From a virus, in IMG/VR virus record IMGVR_UViG_3300035698_012596, positions 1-48,979 of that record: a DNA stretch of 48,979 nucleotides, one strand, 5' to 3'. The notes below the pieces were generated by a model. The model ran no database searches, was not told where the DNA came from, and worked only from the letters and a program-made list of their open reading frames with translations. Below, in pieces: positions 11,587 to 47,490 of this stretch (position 1 is the stretch's first letter; every line of letters begins with the position of its first letter). The position numbers were made by a program, and so were the translations under genes.

Positions 11587-12459
11587 TTATGGTAAAGAAG
11601 CAAATAAATGTATCTGCAAGTTTAGAATAAATCCATATTTCATTGCGTACTCTGCGGTATATTCATGGTTGCGTTGGTTTGCCTTCATATCAAGAAGCCC
11701 TTCATCCCAAAAACTAATCGTCTCGTCTACAGTTGATCGTTCATCGATGGTAATTTCCTTATTTGATGAACGCATTTCTTTAGCCTTTTGTGGTTCTTGC
11801 TTATAGATATTCATCGGACTGACGAAGATTGGTTTACTAGTTTGAATAGCCCATTCATGCGCCCAATCAGGAACTTCGCTGTATGGTGTAAATTGCTCAT
11901 TATTTGGTGAAGTCATAACAAACTTTAAACAATCTGCTCTATCAAGAACTTTTTGGTTGGGTTGTAAATATTTAATAGCAACTTCACCTTTTTCTAAACA
12001 CTTCGGACTAACCACATAAGTAGTCGCTGAACTCAAGTCCAAGTGCAAAATACCATTAGATTCAATTTGTGTATGGAAAAATGTTTTATCGGCTTCTGCA
12101 AGAAACTTGGTTAGATTTTGTTGTAATGACGGTTCACCACCTGTAACAACGAGAACAATTCTTCTATTTGTTCCTTGTGCCCAGCTTGGAATTTCCATAT
12201 TTCTCTCTTCGTAGAACTTGGCAATATCAATATCGATTTGTTTGAAGATTTCGTCGAACGAAAGGTCATCTCCTTGGTCGAAAAAAGTGTCACAAAAACT
12301 ACACGCCAAATTGCATTTAGTCAGTCTAACAAAATAGGCTGGAAAACCACGGAATGGCCCTTCGCCTTGTAATGTATAGAATCGGCTGGTAACTGTTAAT
12401 GTATCTTTTGTGGCATTTGCAAAATAGTTGCGGCCGACTTTTTCATTCATTCCAAACAT
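11587..12459 (-). CDS. queE: 7-carboxy-7-deazaguanine synthase (radical SAM)
   Basis: 290 aa. Radical-SAM cluster C49-x3-C53-x2-C56 ('KCNLACSFCD'), preceded by 'FYTLQGEGPFRG', and the SAM-binding 'TGGEPSLQQN'. This matches QueE, which rearranges 6-carboxytetrahydropterin to 7-carboxy-7-deazaguanine (CDG), the core of queuosine, archaeosine and phage deazaguanine DNA bases. A longer C-terminus than typical bacterial QueE is visible. FolE, a QueD-like and a DpdA-like gene lie 2.4-7.4 kb upstream on the same strand; QueC is not in the window. AGGAAT precedes the ATG. Confidence 0.88.
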   Translation of the reverse strand: MFGMNEKVGRNYFANATKDTLTVTSRFYTLQGEGPFRGFPAYFVRLTKCNLACSFCDTFFDQGDDLSFDEIFKQIDIDIAKFYEERNMEIPSWAQGTNRRIVLVVTGGEPSLQQNLTKFLAEADKTFFHTQIESNGILHLDLSSATTYVVSPKCLEKGEVAIKYLQPNQKVLDRADCLKFVMTSPNNEQFTPYSEVPDWAHEWAIQTSKPIFVSPMNIYKQEPQKAKEMRSSNKEITIDERSTVDETISFWDEGLLDMKANQRNHEYTAEYAMKYGFILNLQIHLFASLP

Positions 12460-26745: not shown

Positions 26746-27083
26746 TTTGTAAGTTGTTTTGGTTCATAAAATTAACTAATTTTTGTACATCTGATTTACT
26801 TATGTTACCATTAGAATCTCGGTATTTTTCTTTTTCCTTAAGAATGATTTCTTTTTCTTCTTTTAATTTTTTGTCTTCATAAACGAAATCCGGACATGAA
26901 TCTCCCCCATTGTAATTTAAGAACAAGAAATAATTTTCGAATTGCCTCATCTGTCATATCATCTTCATTTTTGACAAATTTCTCCCAGAAGAATTCTATT
27001 TCTCCGGGGTCTATCTTTAAGAGTTGGCTAACTTTTGCAATAAGCAAATCGTAACAATCTGTTTTTACTGGTTTATACATCAT
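26726..27083 (-). pseudogene. Paralogue 3, frameshifted at a G5 run
   Basis: Starts at ATG 27083 (GGAGG 6 nt upstream), reads 'DDMTDEAIRKLFLVLKLQWG' and then leaves the family pattern and stops at 26877. One base less in the GGGGG run near 26909 restores '...LKLQWGDSCPDFVYEDKK' and continues to 26726. Both siblings have LKLxxSDxCxDF here, so the shift is well supported. Even if repaired it is short (~118 aa) and lacks the C-terminal domain. It may be a pseudogene, a +1 programmed shift, or a sequencing error. Confidence 0.7.
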
Positions 27084-28957
27084 TCTTTTCCTCCAATTCG
27101 TCCCAGGAGATCATCACCGGCCAAAATTTCAATGCCTTTATCCTGGGCCTTCTTTAGCTTACTAGTGATCTTCGTTGGGTCCTTTGTTACAACATGGGTT
27201 GTATCACTTCGGATACTACTCTGCACTTCACCACCACCAGCTTCAAACTTTTCAAGAGCATCATCCTTCAACCGGAAGCCAGTGCAAACAATTCGCATAC
27301 CATCAAACGCTCCACCCACACTCACAGCCTTAACCTTCTCTTCGATAGTAAAATTGCCATCAATGCTATCCATCCAATTCTGGAAATCATCTACACCGTC
27401 CATGAACTGTTGGGCGGTGTTATGGGAAAATCCTTCGACTTCTAGAACTTCTTCTAGCGTTAAACCGTGCAGCTTGCAGTGGTGGTTAACAATCTTTTGC
27501 ATCCGTCGTTCCCCCATTCCGCGACCAAATACGCCACTGGTGCTGGCCAGTTTCGCAATACTAACAGATCCCAATGTATTACGGAGACGTTCAAGACCCT
27601 TGTACGCCGTCTTGCTACCAACAATCCCGTAAACATCATCAGCATCAGCTACGATGATCTGTGCAAGGTTGCGGTAGCCAGCATCAAACAGCTTCTCTAG
27701 GCCGCTTGTGCTAATGAACTCAAGCCCAATACTCTTTGCCTGGCCCTTGAGCTTTTCCAATTGCGCATCGTCGCTTGCATCAACATCATCGAGAATGATA
27801 TCAACCTTGTTTTCATCCCATGACCAGGCACCATGCATTGTTTCGTCCGGAAGTTCTGCCGTTACGCTCTGGACAACATTCTGGATATACGGAATGACAT
27901 CCCCTGCTCGAACAATTTCAATCTCTGCACCAACACCAATACCACTGTCAACTACAAATTTCGCGTTGAACGCGGTAGCATGACGGATGGTTACACCCTG
28001 GAGATCGATGGGCTTAACTTCAATTCGTGGCTTAATCCGCCCGTCCTTACTGACCTTCCATTCGACGCCAACGATGGTTGTTTTGGCGATATTATCCACA
28101 TCGTTAATCTTGAACTTGAATGCAAATTCTGGATTGATCTTCGTGTTGTTGCGATTAGCTTCCATCCGTTCACGAACAGCCCATCGGTCGACTTCAACCA
28201 CTACACCATCTAACGCAAATTCGCTTTTCGATTTATGATCATCAATCATTTTCTCTAGTGAATTACCGTTTAAATTTTCTCCAATCACAACGTCTACTTG
28301 GGGCAAACTAAATCCAATAGACCCCAACGTGGACATTTGAAAAACTTTAGCCATTTTCGGGATAACAACTTCGTAAGCAATCACGCTTACATTGTCATAA
28401 AACAGTGCATCAGCATCTTTTTTATTCATCTTGCCGGCGACATAGTTCCTAGGATTCTTATAATCAATTTCCAAATCCACAAATAATTTATCGGAAAAAA
28501 TAACTTCTGCACGAACAACCAACGGGCCTTTATCAATTTTCTGGGGGACATTGGCCATCTGCTTAACATGACGCGTAACATCTTGTCCTTGATGACCATC
28601 GCCGCGGCTGTAAGCAATTTGCAAATCGCCTTCTTCACTGTAAACAAGCATGAGACTCACACCGTCTTCTTTACTTGTTACAACAAAAGTTTCGTCTTCG
28701 AGATCATTTCGTTTAATCCAACCTTCAATTTCATCGTGGCTAAGTTGGTTCAAACTTCCCATCTTAAAGGGGAGGTTAACTTTATCTCCCCGAACTGTGG
28801 CGCCAACACCAATAAGGAACGGGTTAGTGGGGTCAAGGGAACGAAGGTCATTTTCCATGGCATCATACTGTGAATCAGTCAACGGGCTATTACCACTGCT
28901 ATAATAAAGCTCACTTGCGTGGGTCAACGTGTTAACTAATTCTTGTATGCGATTCAT
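27080..28957 (-). CDS. ligA: NAD-dependent DNA ligase
   Basis: 625 aa. N-terminal Ia-like helices ('SELYYSSGNSPLTDSQYDAM'), adenylation motif 'TSKEDGVSLML' with nucleophile K96 (usually K-x-D-G), 'YSRGDGHQGQDVT', OB fold ('RAGDVIPYIQNV'), helix-hairpin-helix region and a C-terminal BRCT ('GMRIVCTGF...VVTKD'). The four-Cys zinc finger of bacterial LigA is missing: only two Cys occur in the whole protein, neither in that position. It seals nicks during phage replication. Own promoter at 28981-29009; its TGA overlaps the next ATG. Confidence 0.93.
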   Translation of the reverse strand: MNRIQELVNTLTHASELYYSSGNSPLTDSQYDAMENDLRSLDPTNPFLIGVGATVRGDKVNLPFKMGSLNQLSHDEIEGWIKRNDLEDETFVVTSKEDGVSLMLVYSEEGDLQIAYSRGDGHQGQDVTRHVKQMANVPQKIDKGPLVVRAEVIFSDKLFVDLEIDYKNPRNYVAGKMNKKDADALFYDNVSVIAYEVVIPKMAKVFQMSTLGSIGFSLPQVDVVIGENLNGNSLEKMIDDHKSKSEFALDGVVVEVDRWAVRERMEANRNNTKINPEFAFKFKINDVDNIAKTTIVGVEWKVSKDGRIKPRIEVKPIDLQGVTIRHATAFNAKFVVDSGIGVGAEIEIVRAGDVIPYIQNVVQSVTAELPDETMHGAWSWDENKVDIILDDVDASDDAQLEKLKGQAKSIGLEFISTSGLEKLFDAGYRNLAQIIVADADDVYGIVGSKTAYKGLERLRNTLGSVSIAKLASTSGVFGRGMGERRMQKIVNHHCKLHGLTLEEVLEVEGFSHNTAQQFMDGVDDFQNWMDSIDGNFTIEEKVKAVSVGGAFDGMRIVCTGFRLKDDALEKFEAGGGEVQSSIRSDTTHVVTKDPTKITSKLKKAQDKGIEILAGDDLLGRIGGKE

Positions 28958-35936: not shown

Positions 35937-36599
35937 TTAGCAGGCTTCGCCGCTGGTACTTGCTTCGATAATCTGCGTTACCAGTTCCATTTGCGTAAGT
36001 AGAACATGTTTGATGTTTTCATATGCGGGTTCTTGTTCAACCCACCGTTTCCTAGCAGATTTTAGCATTGGAAGAATGTGATCATCAGTCTCCTGAATAT
36101 ATGATTCTTGTTTCTTGATACTAAACACACCACCCATACTTTGGTGATTATGCATACGATCGCATCCTTTGGCGATGCTTGCAATGGGGTCTTCGATCAT
36201 TTCCAGATAATAACCCACCAACTCTTTCTTTACACCATCAACCTGGTTGGTCATGAGTTCTACTCCCCGAAGTATCCGGGCAACTTGTTTATCGGTTGCC
36301 CTCGCATCGTTGACCAACATATGTTCGACATCGACGAGTGTAACAGATGTATCTTCGACGAGATCGTGCATCGCGATCGTTGCATATGTTTCTTCTGGAT
36401 GCATTAGAATCTTGTCCAATGTCCGAGCGAAGTTCATCTGACTAATTTGGTGCTGAAATTCCGGCGTTACACCGTCCTTACGAAAACCATTATGGTAATG
36501 CTTCGCATATTCCATGCTGGTATAAGCAACCGTATATCCACGCCCCAATAGCCAGTATCTAATGGCGGTTTTGATTGTTTCGTAATTTTGCGTTTTCAT
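35937..36599 (-). CDS. HD-domain (p)ppGpp hydrolase-like protein (SpoT/MESH1 type)
   Basis: 220 aa. Follows the RelA/SpoT hydrolase pattern: 'KHYHNGFRKDGVTPEFQHQI' (H-x-G-x-x-R-x-x-G...H), 'IAMHDLVEDTSVTLVDVE' (H78-D79, E82-D83) and 'SIAKGCDRMHNHQSM' (K-x-x-D-R-x-x-N). There is no synthetase domain. Small alarmone hydrolases remove the 3' diphosphate of ppGpp; in a phage this would blunt the host stringent response. It is divergent from phage pstS, with Pho-box-like repeats between them. Confidence 0.72.
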   Translation of the reverse strand: MKTQNYETIKTAIRYWLLGRGYTVAYTSMEYAKHYHNGFRKDGVTPEFQHQISQMNFARTLDKILMHPEETYATIAMHDLVEDTSVTLVDVEHMLVNDARATDKQVARILRGVELMTNQVDGVKKELVGYYLEMIEDPIASIAKGCDRMHNHQSMGGVFSIKKQESYIQETDDHILPMLKSARKRWVEQEPAYENIKHVLLTQMELVTQIIEASTSGEAC

Positions 36600-36621
36600 A
36601 TCTGTTTCCTTCTATAGTTTT

Positions 36622-36649
36622 ATTATAACACAACTATGGTCATTGTCAA
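36622..36649 (-). promoter_or_regulatory. Sigma70-type early promoter
   Basis: TTGACA (36649-36644), 16-bp spacer ending TGT, TATAAT (36627-36622). Full consensus hexamers and extended -10. Upstream edge lies 20 bp from the 11-bp-period repeats. Confidence 0.85.
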
Positions 36650-36668
36650 GTTTTGAAACCAATGAAAT

Positions 36669-36696
36669 ATTACAATTGGGTTACAGTAATGTTACA
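36669..36696 (+). promoter_or_regulatory. Pho-box-like direct repeats (11-bp period)
   Basis: ATTACA, GTTACA and GTTACA start at 36669, 36680 and 36691, exactly 11 bp apart. PhoB boxes are 11-bp-spaced repeats of CTGTCAT-like heptamers, and TTACA is a tolerated half-site form. Located in the 226-bp divergent region between a SpoT-like gene and pstS. Confidence 0.5.
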
Positions 36697-36825
36697 CGGC
36701 TATTAAGATTTTGTTTATCAGCTCTTTTTGAATATATTTTAAGCAAAAATAACGTTATAGTATAAAAATGCTTAATAAATAATTTTGAGGGAATATGCCC
36801 TTAGTTTTTAATGGAGATAGAAAAA

Positions 36826-37839
36826 ATGAAGAAAGTATTATTGACAACACTAATACTATTAGCATCTGTAGGAATGACGGGTGTAGTACAAGCAAGAGAC
36901 CAAATTAAGATTGTTGGATCATCAACGGTTTATCCTTTTTCAACAACAGTAGCAGAACGTTTTGGTAAGACTACCAATTTTAAGACCCCGGTCGTAGAAT
37001 CAACTGGATCAGGTGGTGGATTTAAACTATTTTGTGCTGGCAACGGAACAGAACATCCAGATTTTACCAACGCCTCCCGCGCAATTAAGAAATCTGAAAT
37101 TGAATTATGTGCCAAAAACGGTGTTAAAAATATCCAAGAAGTTGAGATTGGATTTGATGGGATTGTTATCGCCAACGCAAGGGACGCATACCAATTCAAC
37201 CTCTCCTTGAAGGACGTATTTCTTGCACTGGCAAAATACATTCCTGATGAGAATGGGAAGCTTATTGAAAACCCAAACGTAACCTGGAAAGATATTCGTT
37301 CTGATTTACCAGCAGTAAAGATTGAAGTCCTTGGTCCTCCACCAACATCTGGCACGCGCGACGCGTTTGTTGAGCTTGCTATGGAAGGTGGAGCCAAGCA
37401 GATACCGTTCCTGAAAGACTTACGCAAAACAGATAAGAAAAAGTTCAAAACCATTGCTCACAGTTTAAGAGAAGATGGTATGTTTATTGAAGCTGGCGAA
37501 AATGATAACCTTATCGTACAAAAATTGGTTGCTAATCATTCAGCACTAGGTATTTTTGGTTTTAGTTTCCTTGATAACAATGGAGATGTCGTTAAAGGCA
37601 CAGTCATCAATGAAAATAAACCAACATTTGAAAACATCTCCTCAGGTGATTATCCTTTATCAAGACCACTTTTCTTTTATGTTAAGACGAGTCATATTGG
37701 TAAAATTCCAGGAATACAGGAATATGTTGATATGTTTGTAAGTGATAGCGCGTCTGGAGATGAAGGATATTTGACTGATAAAGGTCTCATCCCATTACCA
37801 GAAGACAAGCGTACAAATATGGTTAGGGAAATTAAGTAA
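36826..37839 (+). CDS. pstS: Periplasmic phosphate-binding protein
   Basis: 337 aa from ATG 36826 (GGAG 9 nt upstream; the earlier ATG at 36811 has no site). Signal peptide 'MKKVLLTTLILLASVGMTG' then V-V-Q-A, cleaved before RDQIKIVGSST. Phosphate-contact loops visible: 'GSSTVYPFSTTVAERF', 'ESTGSGGGFKLFC' and 'PPPTSGTRDAF'. PstS captures phosphate for the host Pst transporter; viral pstS is known from marine phages, where it is tied to phosphate stress. A good terminator follows. Confidence 0.93.
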   Translation: MKKVLLTTLILLASVGMTGVVQARDQIKIVGSSTVYPFSTTVAERFGKTTNFKTPVVESTGSGGGFKLFCAGNGTEHPDFTNASRAIKKSEIELCAKNGVKNIQEVEIGFDGIVIANARDAYQFNLSLKDVFLALAKYIPDENGKLIENPNVTWKDIRSDLPAVKIEVLGPPPTSGTRDAFVELAMEGGAKQIPFLKDLRKTDKKKFKTIAHSLREDGMFIEAGENDNLIVQKLVANHSALGIFGFSFLDNNGDVVKGTVINENKPTFENISSGDYPLSRPLFFYVKTSHIGKIPGIQEYVDMFVSDSASGDEGYLTDKGLIPLPEDKRTNMVREIK

Positions 37840-45726: not shown

Positions 45727-45754
45727 ATTATAACACATAACAAAATGATGTCAA
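45727..45754 (-). promoter_or_regulatory. Sigma70-type early promoter of the main FKLxW operon
   Basis: TTGACA (45754-45749), 16-bp spacer ending TGT, TATAAT (45732-45727): full consensus hexamers with an extended -10. No further promoter of this kind is seen until 41156, so it probably drives all genes from 45695 to 41176. Confidence 0.85.
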
Positions 45755-46510: not shown

Positions 46511-46537
46511 TGTATAACGATTTTATTGTGTTGTCAA
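46511..46537 (-). promoter_or_regulatory. Sigma70-type early promoter
   Basis: TTGACA (46537-46532), 15-bp spacer, TATACA (46516-46511). The -35 overlaps the last codons of the ligase-like gene. Confidence 0.7.
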
Positions 46538-47490
46538 GTCTTAACTTTAACCCAGTGATTATTTTTTCCAAATTTGTACAAAGAACGCGATTCTTTCACA
46601 ACCGCGTAGCTAAACCCCTGATCTTCCAAATCAGTAAGAGCCTCTTGTAACTTGTTGCTTTCATTAAGAGAAATCTTCTTCTTTGCTAATATTTTTACTT
46701 TACCACCAAACGATTCAAGCAATAATTCATGTAGCCCACAAAGAGCATCATGTCTCTCCATTAATGAATGATTTACGAACCCATCTTTAAATTGCTCAAC
46801 TGGGGCGACGTCAATAACAAACCATGTCTCGCCATCATACATTGTATCTAACACAATGTCAATAGGTAAGGGTTTTAGGAATTCTGCTCCACCATTGATT
46901 TCAATATCAAGATATTTCTTATCCCATACTTTTAGTATATTTTGATTCTTTAACGCAACAATTAGTTGTCGTTTTCCGTCGATAAACGGATCTACGAAAT
47001 ATTCTCCACCAATAAATTGTCCCGCTTCACCAATTTGAAATTTTTGATATCCCAAAGTTGGACATATAAATTTTGTAGCTTGTATATCGTTTTTAGAAAG
47101 ACGATTCATTGCGCGATTGTAAGTTGTAATAGTTATTGTTTGTTCCCAATTCTTAAGAAGTATACGACGATAAAATTCATTCCACATATCAACCGCAGCG
47201 GTATCTACCCACTCAGTGACTTGTGCTTGTAGTTTTCCACCGGTTAGGCTTTTGTTTGATATTAAATTAATGAACCGCTTAAATGATTGCCAGTTAATTC
47301 CATCGTCAGCATCATCTTTTTCTGTAATTAATGCAATAGTGTTAAAATGGTAAAACATATAGGGGTTTAATCCCAATTGCAACCCTTCAAAGAGTTTTCG
47401 CTCTCCTGCTTTCCAAGCTTGTTCAAGTAACTTTTCTTTATCTTTGGCCTTAGAAAGGCTAGATAGTTGTTTAATCCATGTGTAAGTCAT
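46534..47490 (-). CDS. ATP-dependent DNA ligase-like protein, catalytic Lys apparently absent
   Basis: 318 aa. The order resembles T4-type ligases: a helical N-domain ('EQAWKAGERKLFEGLQLGLN', 'NRAMNRLSKNDIQATKFICP'), then 'YFVDPFIDGKRQLIVAL' where K-x-D-G-x-R is expected, 'LPIDIVLDTMYDGETW' like motif III (DGE), and 'FSYAVVKESRSLYKFG' with 'HWVKVKT' like motifs IV-V. The nucleophilic Lys of motif I is Phe. It may be an inactive relative or have another role; the phage also carries LigA. Confidence 0.5.
   Translation of the reverse strand: MTYTWIKQLSSLSKAKDKEKLLEQAWKAGERKLFEGLQLGLNPYMFYHFNTIALITEKDDADDGINWQSFKRFINLISNKSLTGGKLQAQVTEWVDTAAVDMWNEFYRRILLKNWEQTITITTYNRAMNRLSKNDIQATKFICPTLGYQKFQIGEAGQFIGGEYFVDPFIDGKRQLIVALKNQNILKVWDKKYLDIEINGGAEFLKPLPIDIVLDTMYDGETWFVIDVAPVEQFKDGFVNHSLMERHDALCGLHELLLESFGGKVKILAKKKISLNESNKLQEALTDLEDQGFSYAVVKESRSLYKFGKNNHWVKVKT

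Follow-up and report, generated by a model that had tools for sequence, protein, structure and literature searches.

A predicted PhoB-type site between a phage pstS gene and a divergent alarmone hydrolase-like gene

Control of phage genes by the host's phosphate status, read through host PhoB, has so far been established mainly in cyanophages that carry pstS, where the gene is under host PhoBR control (PMC10976474). We analyzed a 49-kb record from a large virus of bacteria (IMGVR_UViG_3300035698_012596) in which three short repeats resembling a Pho box lie in a 226-bp intergenic region, flanked on one side by a minus-strand gene for an HD-domain protein and on the other by a plus-strand pstS. 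This layout raises the question of which gene, if either, such a site would serve. Throughout, the window refers to the whole 48,979-nucleotide stretch of this record, which is probably a fragment. Because its DNA polymerase is most similar to the polymerases of Sinorhizobium phage Phosso and Agrobacterium phage Atu_ph07, the virus is probably of jumbo-phage origin. No tRNA was found in the window as a hint to the host, and a scan of genome contigs returned only two cellular relatives. The same phage fragment encodes a full NAD-dependent DNA ligase (27080-28957, minus strand) together with a second protein weakly matching ATP-dependent DNA ligases (46534-47490, minus strand). It also encodes a QueE-like radical SAM protein (11587-12459, minus strand) that hints at 7-deazaguanine chemistry.

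Table 1. Features of the intergenic region and its two flanking genes.
Feature	Position	Strand	Remarks
HD gene	35937-36599	-	small alarmone hydrolase-like, 220 aa, HD domain
sigma-70 promoter of HD gene, TTGACA-16-TATAAT, TG before -10	36622-36649	-	perfect consensus
Pho-box units, three strong: GTGTAACATTA CTGTAACCCAA TTGTAATATTT	36697 to 36665	-	TTACA repeats on the opposite strand
Half-site TCTTAAT, weak fourth unit	36708-36702	-	11-bp register, 2.06 bits; in best four-unit array
T4-late-like motif AATAAATA	36774-36781	+	ahead of pstS; putative function
Short hairpin then T-run, pstS leader	36785-36804	+	-7.6 kcal/mol, z -1.7
pstS	36826-37839	+	phosphate-binding protein; N-terminus signal-peptide-like

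The plus-strand gene encodes a protein of PstS type, with a phosphate-binding-protein domain (PF12849, 149 bits), the conserved motif PPPTSGTRD, and other invariant columns, although its score against NCBIfam TIGR02136 (139.6 bits) falls below the cut-off of 206.6. Its signal-peptide-like N-terminus was judged by eye. The reading frame is open from 36811, and we infer the start given in Table 1 from a Shine-Dalgarno-like GGAG and from alignment.

The initial annotation had described three TTACA repeats at 11-bp spacing in the divergent region, and their positions on the plus strand (36670-36674, 36681-36685, and 36692-36696) bear this out exactly. No other 5-mer in the window forms a triplet at this spacing, and shuffled sequences gave an expectation of 0.16 such triplets per window and 0.003 per 226-bp intergenic region. 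The repeats had also been read as Pho-box-like, with weight-matrix scoring proposed as a check. We built a half-site matrix from the E. coli Pho promoters of pstS, phoA, phoB, phoE, ugpB, and phoH. With the reservation that the host's PhoB may differ from that of E. coli, the two-unit site CTGTAACCCAATTGTAAT on the minus strand scored 13.9 bits and ranked first among ~98,000 positions. The plus-strand reading of the same repeats scored -3.4, which rules out TTACA itself as the half-site. On the minus strand the array reads GTGTAAC-CTGTAAC-TTGTAAT, giving three 7-bp half-sites at 11-bp spacing in addition to the weak fourth unit. A matrix built from cellular pstS boxes gave this three-unit reading 22.8 bits, compared with 11.0 for the best site elsewhere in the window. 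Judged by its sequence, the array is very probably a Pho box, that is, a predicted PhoB-type site. The earlier reading thus stands as to the kind of site and its place beside a phage pstS, but not as to its strand: the box is directed toward the HD gene and inverted with respect to pstS.

To place the site in context, phage pstS relatives were gathered from viral contigs, and upstream regions sharing at most 25% of their 8-mers were counted as distinct. One candidate relative, Acinetobacter phage MD-2021a (L014, CAKLQF020000007.1), was rejected since ipdC, aroP, and pstSCAB lie on its contig, which has the look of a bacterial chromosome. Without any motif model, 7-bp near-repeats at 11-bp spacing occurred in 27 of 45 distinct regions upstream of phage pstS, compared with 11.2 +/- 2.7 in shuffles and with 21% of 223 control upstream regions from the same loci (p 5e-7 versus phage pstS). 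Other spacings were mostly found in 5 to 13 of the 45 regions, with no excess at 9, 10, 12, or 13 bp; a spacing of 22 bp, twice the repeat, was found in 17. A chance repeat is ruled out by the shuffles and the comparative sets of pstS upstream regions. Helical-repeat or A-tract periodicity is likewise ruled out by the lack of excess at 10 and 12 bp and by the far lower frequency in control regions.

Scoring with a half-site matrix, which includes units from some of the same phages, identified 11-bp Pho-like arrays in 49 of 96 distinct regions upstream of a phage pstS, where about 6 would be expected. Half of these arrays were inverted. The counts of 24 plus and 25 minus, each against ~2.9 expected, are approximate because plus-oriented phage arrays contributed to the matrix that assigned orientation. 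Since the gene upstream of pstS differs among phages and is mostly co-directional with it, it is pstS itself that the array accompanies. This survey extends the Pho-box signature to many phages with a proteobacterial-type PstS.

The HD gene gave a different picture. Viral contigs, in many cases from very large phages, yielded 43 HD-gene loci, and neither a Pho box nor a nearby pstS was found in any of the 42 other HD-gene upstream regions. The sole locus with either was the window's own copy on an identical contig (L181), and in phages Phosso and RaK2 the annotated HD relatives have unrelated genes around them. A box conserved as a trait of the HD gene is thereby ruled out. Because arrays recur at pstS and are absent from other HD loci, the box belongs with pstS, and comparison of these sequences makes pstS the most likely gene to which the Pho-type site should be assigned. 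The initial annotation had also proposed that one site switches pstS and the HD gene jointly. These counts, and the HD gene's possession of its own sigma-70 promoter, leave that proposal unsupported. Little of the basis for a joint phosphate and alarmone switch is left, and we regard it as a minority possibility.

Would the repeats instead bind some other regulator that uses 11-bp direct repeats, either another OmpR-family member or a phage protein? Direct-repeat binding is common to members of the OmpR family, and the TGTAAY half-sites of the window differ from the E. coli consensus TGTCAY, which may not be the consensus of the host. Against this, the arrays recur specifically at pstS, and TGTCAT and TGTAAC units are mixed within one promoter in two 11-bp arrays (L046 and L058). 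Cellular pstS genes can also have TGTAAY half-sites: an AT-rich cellular promoter (L141) carries ATGTAAT-ATGTAAC-GTGTAAC facing the gene. We therefore consider a different regulator quite unlikely.

We compared the placement of the box with that in E. coli, where the Pho boxes of pstS, phoA, phoB, and phoE share its 7-bp half-sites every 11 bp (e.g., CTGTAAT-ATAT-CTTTAAC in phoE). The E. coli boxes are oriented toward their gene, and the -10 follows ten bp later, whereas the window departs from this in both orientation and spacing. On the pstS side, the box is inverted, the expected place lacks a -10, and a search for a sigma-70 promoter of pstS gave no good candidate. On the HD side, the box faces the gene, but TATAAT lies 41 nt away rather than the canonical 10, and the -35 begins 19 bp beyond the box. 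Because the rule on orientation and -10 spacing does not hold, we did not classify the box as a canonical PhoB-dependent promoter. As canonical geometry is absent at both genes, we infer rather than observe regulation of either.

Since the box points at the HD gene, it may affect that gene. Specifically, it could serve the HD gene, alone or with pstS, if binding of PhoB ahead of the HD promoter increased the alarmone hydrolase at low phosphate. In addition to the orientation, this alternative is favored by the distance of 98 bp from the 5' end of the box to the HD start codon, cellular pstS boxes lying at ~65-170 bp, and by a 41-nt gap that exceeds the canonical 10 by about three helical turns. 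However, a consensus promoter should need no activator, the box stops short of the -35 with no overlap, and the 42 other HD upstream regions compared lack a box. On balance, we find service to the HD gene doubtful. The HD promoter belongs to a family of near-identical, early-type promoters on the minus strand (TTGACA-16-TATAAT with TG, at 45754, 39856, 39489, 36649, 35933, and 35085), several of which are followed by AATGACATAA(G/A)CAAACA.

The HD protein had been described as a SpoT-like hydrolase, and both its catalytic residues and its predicted fold favor that description. It matches TIGR00691 (RelA/SpoT) with an E-value of 4e-7, but the match falls far short of that family's full-length cut-off. 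Against PF13328 it scores 24.5 bits, short of the 27.2 cut-off, which a 58%-identical homologue passes with 38.7. The catalytic residues of RSH hydrolases (H, HD, ED, and D-R-x-H-N) are present, and H36, R40, H50, H78-D79, E82-D83, D147-R148, and N151 are invariant in 32 phage homologues. An AlphaFold2 model (pLDDT 93.9) had its best PDB matches in the P. aeruginosa SAH and SpoT/Rel, with MESH1 further down; the TM-score against 6z3o was 0.82 by target length. The protein thus shares its fold and catalytic residues with small alarmone hydrolases such as P. aeruginosa SAH, MESH1, and PaAdele_032 of phage Adele, but at ~20% identity. From fold and residues, we consider it a good candidate for a small alarmone hydrolase, whose substrate could be either (p)ppGpp or (p)ppApp. 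PaAdele_032 is likewise a stand-alone HD protein annotated as a SAH, with either of the two as its possible substrate (PMC12846349).

Inverted boxes were not peculiar to the window, and the two orientations each had a -10-like element at a characteristic, constant distance. Among the 24 plus arrays, 8 had the hexamer [AT]TAAAT or TATAAT beginning exactly 10 bp past the final half-site (shuffled peak <=4 in 2000 trials), a spacing also visible in phoA and pstS of E. coli. Of the 25 inverted arrays, 12 had [AT]TAAAT beginning exactly 14 bp downstream (shuffled peak at most 4), although these are not 12 independent events because many inverted members lie near Mosig. Arrays of the latter kind include L007, L013, L024, L048, L308, L309, L311, L314, L315, L322, L329, L334, and others. 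The longer motif [AT]TAAATA was present in 13 of 26 array-bearing pstS upstream regions and in 0 of 19 without arrays. Near-identical sequence can occur in both orientations, an example being CTGTAACAAAACTTTAAG, which is plus-oriented in L339, and CTGTAACAAAACTTTAAC, which is inverted in L312. A PstS tree, in which bootstrap values were unsettled and part of the orientation labelling was done by eye, grouped the window with two plus-oriented phages (L021 and L018) and intermixed the orientations.

The 14-bp arrangement is possibly an undescribed promoter geometry. We found no inverted or reversed Pho boxes in the literature, which is weak evidence with subscription papers outside the search, and reported work on box orientation in E. 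coli phoE could bear on the matter. Among 60 cellular pstS upstream regions, 23 passed the E. coli matrix, and all 23 boxes faced pstS. A looser cellular matrix gave 30 plus and 8 minus at p < 0.01; the count of 23 is cleaner because the looser matrix was seeded with plus-oriented boxes of the same set. If inverted boxes are functional, PhoB can act on phage promoters in a geometry absent from the 23 matrix-positive cellular boxes.

Pelagibacter phage Mosig EXVC030M offers one of the closest parallels. Its pstS is 50% identical, its 11-bp repeat reads as an inverted array, and its upstream gene is divergent, but that gene encodes a UDP-diacylglucosamine hydrolase instead of an HD protein. In Mosig, TTAAAT follows the array at 14 bp, whereas no [AT]TAAAT was found 14 bp past the window array in the direction of pstS. 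A fifth unit that would place TATATT at 13 bp in the window scored -3.5 and was rejected. Because the window copy fits neither the 10-bp nor the 14-bp rule, its box may control either promoter or none. We considered whether inverted boxes might work as a class of their own in phages, with a late-type -10 as their target at an orientation-specific distance, and whether the window array, between two divergent promoters, might adjust both an early alarmone hydrolase and a late pstS to the phosphate state of the host. In this combined form, we judge the proposal unlikely.

The pstS gene does have a T4-type late promoter motif by sequence (TATAAATA or NATAAATA shortly 5' of late genes), located 64 bp from the box. 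Motifs of the same kind, GATAAATA and CATAAATA, are also seen in front of tail genes, at window positions 1121 and 1991. The pstS copy resembles NATAAATA, a late promoter of cyanophages (PMC2984593). Its closeness to pstS, together with a window array that breaks the spacing rules of other phages, would suit a relic that arrived with pstS and now controls nothing, leaving the late promoter as the sole source of pstS transcripts. Three well-preserved units forming the strongest Pho-like site in the window argue otherwise, and we hold a relic to be at least as improbable as a different regulator.

We favor, at a probability of roughly 0.55, a host-PhoB site that the phage has kept with pstS and that activates this gene at low phosphate. 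When the host is short of phosphate, phosphorylated PhoB would bind the tandem half-sites and increase transcription of the phage pstS. The resulting PstS would act as a periplasmic phosphate-binding protein feeding the host's PstCAB transporter, and the T4-late-type promoter nearer to pstS would probably provide further, late expression. A point against this explanation is that the window box faces away from pstS, whereas the matrix-positive cellular boxes face it without exception. In the Prochlorococcus phage P-SSM2, too, the promoter region of a phage-borne pstS contains tandem Pho-box repeats. However, its array (CTTAACC-TTCT-CTTAGTT) faces the PSSM2_247-pstS unit while that of the window is inverted, and the window differs further in its proteobacterial-type PstS, TGTAAY half-sites, and jumbo-phage-type DNA polymerase.

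Many phage pstS leaders carry a short hairpin where the transcript should begin, immediately behind the -10 or late-like motif. Examples were recognized by eye in L023-L025, L047-L049, L060, and L063, and by folding in the pstS leader of the window.
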